From positions 1 to 53,846 of the forward strand of contig JACRBM010000085.1 of assembly GCA_016219275.1 (NCBI GenBank): 53,846 nucleotides of DNA, given 5' to 3'. A program made the translations under genes and the position numbers. Numbering within the stretch: the stretch's first letter is position 1; each line of letters opens with the position of its first letter. This stretch comes from Chloroflexota bacterium (GTDB taxonomy: Bacteria; Chloroflexota; Anaerolineae; UBA4142). The notes beneath the pieces were generated by a model, which had not been told where the DNA came from, ran no database searches, and worked only from the letters and a program-made list of their open reading frames with translations. Shown here in pieces: positions 51,731 to 53,846 of this stretch.

Positions 51731-51782
51731 TCTGTTTGCGCGTTTTTGACAATCTAGCCGGTTGTGGTACAAGTGGAGACCG

Positions 51783-52421
51783 ATGAATCCACTCCCACTG
51801 CAATTTGGCTTGCTCTGTTTCGTCTCGCTCTTTACGATGATTGACCCGCTCGGCGCGTTGCCGGTTTTCGTTTCGATGACCGGCAAATTGTCGCATCCCG
51901 AATCGCGCCGCGTCGCGTTGCGCGCCGCGCTGACCGCGTGGATCGCGCTCGTGCTCTTTGCGCTGACCGGGCGATTCATCTTTGAATTCTTCGGCATCTC
52001 GGTCCACAGTCTCCGCATCGTCGGCGGCATTATTTTTTTCATCATGGGTTACGAAATGCTCGAAGCGCGGCTGACGCGCACCAAAGCGGACGAGCAATCG
52101 GTCAGCGAATACATCGAAGACATCGCGATCACGCCGCTCGGCATTCCGCTCATCGCCGGACCCGGCGCGATTGCGACGGTGATCGTGTTGATGAACGAGA
52201 CGACCGGCGAATTCGAAAAACAAATCGCGCTGTTCGGCGCGATTACGGCGGTGCTGGTGTTGTCGTTCCTGTTCCTGATCGGCGCGCGTCAGGTGATGCA
52301 CGCGCTTGGCAGTGCGGGGAACAAAGTTCTCTTGCGAATTATGGGTTTGATCGTGATGGCAATTGCCGTCGAGTTTTTCTTCAACGGGTTACGTCCGATC
52401 ATTCAAAGTATGAAGCCCTAG
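51783..52421 (+). CDS. MarC-family integral membrane protein
   Basis: 212 aa from the ATG at 51783 (GTGGAGACCG upstream). Six helices. FTMIDPLGALPVFVSMTGKL at the end of helix 1, and AITPLGIPLIAGPGAIATVI in the middle, are the duplicated Pro/Gly motifs of the MarC family. Despite the name the function is not settled; the fold is transporter-like. The integron-like cassettes begin shortly after it. Confidence 0.94.
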   Translation: MNPLPLQFGLLCFVSLFTMIDPLGALPVFVSMTGKLSHPESRRVALRAALTAWIALVLFALTGRFIFEFFGISVHSLRIVGGIIFFIMGYEMLEARLTRTKADEQSVSEYIEDIAITPLGIPLIAGPGAIATVIVLMNETTGEFEKQIALFGAITAVLVLSFLFLIGARQVMHALGSAGNKVLLRIMGLIVMAIAVEFFFNGLRPIIQSMKP

Positions 52422-52498: not shown

Positions 52499-52630
52499 AG
52501 GGCTAATGGTTTGCGTTACTGGCGCTGGGGCGGGCGTGGACTCTGCTTGGGAGCAGAGAAAACTCGAAGCCAGAAAAATACTTGAAAATGCGGCAAAATC
52601 CCAGCGTCCAGTGCACGCGGTGTTAGCCGC
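52499..52630 (-). other. attC-like recombination site 2
   Basis: Plus strand: GGCTAAT (52501-52507) and GTTAGCC (52622-52628) are the outer boxes. Inside, GCGTTACTGGCGCTGGG pairs with CCCAGCGTCCAGTGCACGC. The right half has unpaired extra bases (T after CCCAGCG, and one more about five bases later), as expected of extrahelical bases in attC. The loop holds a CTCTGCT/AGCAGAG hairpin. Total 132 bp, inside the known attC range. The AAT in place of AAC in the left box suggests a weakened or terminal site. It lies just 3' of the gene at 52671. Confidence 0.7.
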
Positions 52631-52670
52631 GCCTGATGAAATGAAAGCCTTGCTTTTTGTAACACTTTAT

Positions 52671-53060
52671 TTATGCTCGTGTAATAGTAATTAGCCAATT
52701 CACTAAAGCACCAAGTAAACCAAACAAAGCACCTGTGAGTGTGACTATGACTATTGCATTCATTATTGCCTTTGGACGGGCTTCTTTTGAGACTGTATCT
52801 GGTAATCGCCCTGGGCCAATTACCGATGAAACCCACCAACCAATTGTTGCCTCAATAATTGCTACGCCAGCTCCACTAATTATCCCATCCATAAAACTTC
52901 CATTTTGGCTTCCCATTACACCTGCAATCACATATATAAGAAAACTCACCCACATGCCTTTGGAGTAAGTATAGCCTTTAGCCTTCGCAATAGTTGCCCA
53001 AATACCATCGAACACAATTGCAAGTACGCCAAAAACGAGGATGACTTGCCATGTTTCCAT
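52671..53060 (-). CDS. Small four-helix membrane protein, cassette-borne
   Basis: 129 aa; GGGAGTTGTTAA before the ATG. Four hydrophobic segments (about 4-22, 35-52, 57-78, 100-125). The sequence is clearly more AT-rich than the rest of the window and uses codons unlike its neighbours. Glycine-rich helices (YVIAGVMGSQNGSFMDGIIS, GAGVAIIEATIGWWV). No family recognised. It is flanked by attC-like sites at 52499-52630 and 53166-53238, which fits one integron cassette of about 600 bp. Confidence 0.85.
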   Translation of the reverse strand: METWQVILVFGVLAIVFDGIWATIAKAKGYTYSKGMWVSFLIYVIAGVMGSQNGSFMDGIISGAGVAIIEATIGWWVSSVIGPGRLPDTVSKEARPKAIMNAIVIVTLTGALFGLLGALVNWLITITRA

Positions 53061-53165
53061 TTAACAACTCCCACAAGAAGATATTTTATTTCGATCCTAT
53101 CATGTCTTCAAAAATTATTACGATTGTTTTACTCTTGCAATTGTAACCACCACTTTTCAGAGCAA

Positions 53166-53238
53166 GCGGCTAACGTGTACGTCAGCCGCTCGCCGAGGCG
53201 AAGCCGACGGCGAGTCGGCTGCACGTGATGTTAGCCGC
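53166..53238 (-). other. attC-like recombination site 1
   Basis: Plus strand: GCGGCTAAC (53166-53174) and GTTAGCCGC (53230-53238) are exact inverted outer boxes. Inside, ACGTCAGCCGCTCGCCG pairs with CGGCGAGTCGGCTGCACGT if two bases in the right half (T and C) bulge out. A short unpaired central spacer (GTGT/GAT) separates inner and outer stems. Outer boxes, spacer and two extrahelical bases on one side together are the attC architecture. Total 73 bp. It lies 3' of the gene at 53354. Confidence 0.82.
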
Positions 53239-53353
53239 CTTTATGCTTTGACGGGTTGGCGCTGGGCTTTGGAAGTCTGCCATAGCGGCGGCTGTGTTTC
53301 TGTATGCACAGTCGTAACGGTCTTCGACTATGTCGTGTTCAGCCAATCACCCA

Positions 53354-53710
53354 TTACTTTTCCGCCCTCAAAGCCCAGCCCGTCCACGCTGCGCCAAGCA
53401 AATCGACTGAGCCCAGCACGATCATGATCGGGCCAACCCAGCCCAGCAGCACAAAGCCCGTGAGGAACAGGAAGACGGCGACCCTTGCAGGGACTGTCCA
53501 TGCGGCGAATGAACGCAGGTTGGCGCGCGAGGCCTGAATGTAGTAGAACGCCAGCACCAATGTCACCACGCCCAGCACGCGGATCCAAATTTCGTTGGTG
53601 GGCGGCAGGCTCAAGAGGCCGAGCACGGTGTTGGGCATGACGACAAGCCCCGCGCCCATGCCAATGAGGTATACCCCAAAGACCAACAGTGATGTTGAAG
53701 ACTTGTTCAT
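53354..53710 (-). CDS. Small four-helix membrane protein, probably cassette-borne
   Basis: 118 aa from the ATG at 53710, chosen because CGAGGAGAAACC precedes it; a longer frame to 53806 has no site. Helices at about 6-30, 42-60, 72-92 and 95-112, with LGLLSLPPTNEIWIRVLGVV between the first two. DUF4345-like small membrane proteins share this layout, but I do not assign it. CTATTATACG upstream may hold a -10. It is followed in the same orientation by attC-like site 1, so it may be the next cassette; its upstream boundary is beyond or near the window edge. Confidence 0.85.
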   Translation of the reverse strand: MNKSSTSLLVFGVYLIGMGAGLVVMPNTVLGLLSLPPTNEIWIRVLGVVTLVLAFYYIQASRANLRSFAAWTVPARVAVFLFLTGFVLLGWVGPIMIVLGSVDLLGAAWTGWALRAEK

Positions 53711-53846
53711 GGTTTCTCCTCGTATAATAGATTTGCACGAACAGGGTGTCCCAGAGAAAATGACTCGGCGTTTCGACGGGTCACGTGGGCAGTTCTTTTT
53801 CTCCATGTTGGCTCGTGACTTCTTTTCAAAGACTGTTACCCACGCC

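Follow-up and report, generated by a model that had tools for sequence, protein, structure and literature searches.

Part of an integron array without a detectable integrase at a contig end in an Anaerolineae genome

The right-hand end of the DNA analysed here very probably carries part of an array of integron cassettes for which no integron integrase (IntI) can be detected. It would represent either a CALIN (attC sites clustered without an integron integrase) or the distal part of an array that was cut by the assembly. The window, that is, the whole stretch of DNA under study, is a complete contig (C85) of 53,846 bp from a Chloroflexota bacterium of the class Anaerolineae. The locus lies downstream of marC. 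A CALIN requires two or more attC sites within 4 kb and the absence of an integron integrase from their neighbourhood, which is the arrangement seen here, and the contig stops 0.6 kb past the second site. The sequence, structure, strand sense and family of the attC sites, a further 14 sites in the genome and the canonical geometry of such sites in relatives were all computed directly. The features of the region are as follows.

51762 to 52421, plus strand: marC, a resident flanking gene (PF01914, E 6e-54) that converges on the array
52501 to 52628, minus strand: attC site 1, of the type of about 130 nt; 128 nt, R″ GGCTAAC, R′ ATTAGCC
52671 to 53060, minus strand: cassette gene 1, an ORF for a 129-aa protein, hydrophobic by hydropathy, that precedes site 1
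53168 to 53236, minus strand: attC site 2, of the short type; 69 nt, R″ GGCTAAC, R′ GTTAGCC
53354 to 53710, minus strand: probable cassette gene 2, an ORF for a 118-aa hydrophobic protein of an unnamed family, that precedes site 2
53716 to 53846, plus strand: left non-coding end of an IS110-family element (a repeat), outside the integron

The attC Sites

An attC site is bounded by an inverse core, RYYYAAC, and a core, GTTRRRY, and spans 57–141 bp in total (PMC3053210). The two sites of the window, separated by a distance of 540 bp and sharing the same sense, have lengths within this range. Site 2 has the AAC and GTT triplets, while site 1 has AAC and ATT. The original prediction had described two attC-like sites with outer boxes GGCTAAY/GTTAGCC and bulged bases on the right half. 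The sites and their bulges are borne out by the folds and by independent covariance models; the box sequences hold for site 2, but the R′ box of site 1 reads ATTAGCC instead. The second base of R″ is a G in both sites where a pyrimidine is expected, with a C at the matching place of R′, and the same is seen in many of the IntI-linked sites of relatives.

Read along the minus strand, both sites begin with the 7-nt R″ box, followed by a short spacer, a 4-bp stem, an extrahelical G, six positions and an extrahelical A. The inner stem, the loop, L′ and R′ then follow. Folds and model alignments place the extrahelical bases (minus-strand letters) at 53215 (A) and 53222 (G) in site 2, and at 52607 (A) and 52614 (G) in site 1, where a C-A mismatch adjoins them. 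The bulges are six nucleotides apart in each site, and all of them fall in the half that comes first when the minus strand is read 5′ to 3′, which is the right half of the plus strand. This spacing is the one best handled by the integrases that have been tested (PMC3053210). Integrases recombine the bottom strand of attC (PMC8946536), which for sites 1 and 2 corresponds to the plus strand of the window. Folded as single-stranded DNA, site 2 gives a z-score of −7.2 to −7.5, which none of 200 shuffles equalled; the z-score of site 1 is −2.7 to −3.0.

The crossover triplet of site 1 is ATT, a G-to-A change relative to GTT. The triplet is GTT in all 15 other sites of the genome and in 18 of the 21 sites of relatives that lay outside the training set, as read from the printed sequences. 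Site 1 is probably impaired as a recombination site, since the changed base adjoins the crossover point, whereas site 2 may still be usable. The type to which site 1 belongs is conserved and about 130 nt long. With the loop counted in, site 1 shares 82% identity with an attC (L065:1702-1830) in the IntI-bearing genome G181.

Covariance Models Built from Relatives

An attC covariance check had been proposed along with the original prediction, and covariance models were built here. The DNA around intI was fetched from IntI-bearing genomes of the same class, and no sequence of the window entered either model, R1 or R2. A scan script looked for R″/R′ boxes on either side of an L stem that is bulged on one half. 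It returned 37 matches (site 2 of the window being counted among them) in about 620 kb of real sequence, against 3 in shuffled sequence. Dropping doubtful matches left 27 sites, and the exclusion of one oddly aligned site left 26, which form alignment A1 and gave model R1. Model R2 was made from eight long sites. Covariation in A1 is strong, with 94% of cells paired and 103 double-change cells, a level that no shuffle reached; the scan itself demanded AAC and GTT, so that the constancy of those letters is partly built in.

On the minus strand, model R1 gives site 2 a score of 56.5 bits (E 7e-13), compared with 18.2 bits on the plus strand. Site 1 scores 96.3 bits (E 3e-20) with R2, again on the minus strand, and 43.9 bits with R1. 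Both palindromes are confirmed at the level of sequence as genuine attC sites in the strand sense first given. Their shared orientation, which had been said to fit the strand of the genes, is upheld by these minus-strand matches, both genes being on the minus strand and each preceding its site. Near intI genes, 48 of the 49 matches, many of which belonged to the training set, are on the strand opposite to intI and 5′ of it. This is the canonical geometry of an integron and speaks in favour of the models. Rfam at its gathering threshold matched nothing in the window. A strict GGCTAAC...GTTAGCC pattern, which is blind to diverged sites, recovered site 2 and one chance palindrome genome-wide.

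Further attC Sites in the Genome

The assembly is a 6.16-Mb draft of 107 contigs and is 97.9% complete. Models R1 and R2 together detect 16 attC sites in it, two on C85 and 14 on nine other contigs. Six of the latter are on C26, with one each on C66, C87, C59, C30, C41, C23, C107 and C43. The C26 sites (L097 551-3769, minus strand) form an array next to leuB, in which sites of about 80 nt and about 130 nt alternate, three of each, around three genes. The three sites of about 80 nt are nearly identical. One of the genes is alpha/beta-hydrolase-like, accompanied by two others, and the genes seem to be parted by gene-less mini-cassettes.

Of the ten contigs with attC, nine have a site no more than 1.9 kb from one of their ends (chance about 2e-10). 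Arrays or insertion elements are therefore the probable cause of the breaks in the assembly at these points. Judged by strand and position, five contig ends (C26, C30, C41, C43 and C87) would lead into an array and four (C85, C23, C107 and C59) out of one.

Search for an Integrase

The window had been described as lacking an integrase, and this proved true of the genome as well: neither the window nor the other contigs hold an IntI over the TIGR02249 cut-off, not even a fragment. The proposed hunt for intI and more sites thus brought the sites and not the gene. No array in this assembly has an intI gene next to it, as a complete integron would. Among 249 genomes of the class, IntI is over the cut-off in 64, around a quarter, and R1 finds attC in 102, so that about two fifths carry such types.

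It is possible, if on the unlikely side, that the species has a complete integron with intI in an assembly gap, the integrase-less look being an artefact of contig breaks. The crowding of attC sites at contig ends and the repeat in which C85 ends are consistent with this, as is the presence of IntI in three genomes of the same family (G039, G098 and G118). Draft assembly is also able to create spurious CALINs (PMC9024848). Against it, the assembly, 97.9% complete, shows no IntI or fragment of one over the cut-off, and the array on C26 starts beside leuB without intI.

In-frame stops interrupt the matched stretch in many intI genes of the class, for example in G039, G059, G064, G071 and G098. 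These stops suggest that intI may have decayed repeatedly in Anaerolineae.

The nearest protein in the genome is a 382-aa tyrosine recombinase at the end of contig C4 (L020 4360-5508). Its score against the IntI model is 200 bits, the cut-off being 265. It was rejected as an IntI, as it is without the insertion of about 35 residues that is present in all four IntI of relatives. Its best solved relative is IntI4, and it has an extra N-terminal part. It is very improbable that the scattered attC sites are served by a non-IntI tyrosine recombinase such as this protein; if true, this would constitute an attC system without an integron integrase.

Cassette Genes and the marC Flank

The reading of the locus as an integron cassette array, at an integron end or as a stand-alone attC cluster, was the one originally proposed. 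It is supported by the model scores, the geometry in relatives, the 14 further sites and a relative of gene 2 described below. Gene 1 has an attC in the same sense behind it and another attC bounding it upstream, and so corresponds to the definition of a cassette. Lying between the two sites, it is AT-rich, as first noted, with 41.8% GC compared with 56.7% for the window. Its protein has no Pfam or NCBIfam match over the cut-off. Its relatives in 395 other class genomes number only two, both distant, and searches of named genomes and of plasmids gave none. The closest relative (G071) has no attC near it. Searches of both cassette proteins against PHROGs and PADLOC gave no useful match.

Gene 2 belongs to a family present in 32 of 396 genomes of the class, the present one included, and no copy was found in plasmids. 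It appears unlikely that gene 1 is the only cassette and that gene 2 is resident and sits before site 2 by chance. The host-like GC content of gene 2 (59%) would suit a resident gene, and most of its relatives do not adjoin attC; its upstream end is bounded by an IS110-family element and not by an attC. Against this, the attC lies in the gene's own sense 117 nt behind its stop codon, and in G062 an attC directly precedes a relative, whose start is 39 nt away.

On the other side of the locus, marC is 66–82% identical in six genomes of the same family, and its closest relatives are in Chloroflexi/Anaerolineae metagenome genomes. No attC was found near marC in these six genomes. The attC cluster is therefore regarded as an addition beside a resident gene.

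The Contig End

Contigs C96, C37 and C102 (L151–L153) carry copies of 53716–53846 at their ends that are 97–100% identical. In genomes of the same family the matching sequence is found beside an IS110-family transposase gene, which is degenerate in G292. In G227, an intact 423-aa IS110-family transposase (PF02371 E 4e-16, PF01548 E 7e-11) lies beside it. The left end of such an element, together with the contig end, masks the upstream boundary of the gene 2 cassette. The repeat before gene 2 was considered as an integron leader, an attI or a mobile promoter, and was rejected as such, being the end of an IS110-family element.

The left ends of these elements stop, behind a common GAGGAG, a few bases before the start codons of several unrelated genes. 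Ends bounded by GAGGAG occur in this genome and in relatives (L181, L182, L183, L186 and L187), while two copies in relatives, L179 and L180, deviate. It looks as if the IS110-family element may target or supply Shine–Dalgarno sequences.

Proposed Mechanism

That the palindromes are ordinary hairpins (transcription terminators or interspersed palindromes) would fit their being inverted repeats behind genes, yet it is extremely improbable in view of the E-values obtained with independently trained models, the strand asymmetry, the homologous sites beside IntI in relatives and a terminator scan that passes over both.

As attC sites, they would function as follows. Each cassette unit would comprise a minus-strand gene for a small membrane protein with an attC behind it. 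The plus strand of the window, when single-stranded, would fold into a hairpin, in which the extrahelical T and C, six nucleotides apart, would show IntI which strand to use. A single-strand exchange by IntI at G^TT within R′ would follow, resulting in the excision or insertion of the cassette in a fixed orientation. The cassettes may have been captured by an IntI that is now lost, unassembled or acting from elsewhere. The array presumably continued rightward until the insertion of the IS110-family element where gene 2 begins.

Relation to Known Systems and Significance

The locus resembles published CALINs (PMC8618304, PMC9024848) in that its two attC sites share one sense and are separated by less than 4 kb, with a small gene before each and no intI nearby. 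It differs in that it lies at a contig end, where the absence of a nearby intI cannot be proved, and in the ATT crossover of site 1. The chromosomal integrons of other Anaerolineae (for example G181, G228 and G118) have the same two attC types and the same extrahelical pattern, but carry intI upstream of the array, whereas the present genome shows none. The attC sites of class 1 integrons are alike in their R box, spacer, L box, variable loop and two one-sided extrahelical bases six nucleotides apart. However, theirs read T-N6-G (PMC3053210), while the bottom strand here reads T-N6-C, with R″ GGCTAAC.

Reports of integrons in Chloroflexi go back to 2008 (PMC2426708; PMC8618304), and CALINs are common (PMC8618304). 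The region is an ordinary example of what is already known. It adds a clear example of integron cassettes in an under-studied class. A Chloroflexota origin has been suggested for the mobile resistance gene sul4 (PMC5732528), and lineage-specific attC models of the kind made in this analysis would aid surveys of cassettes in environmental members of the phylum.
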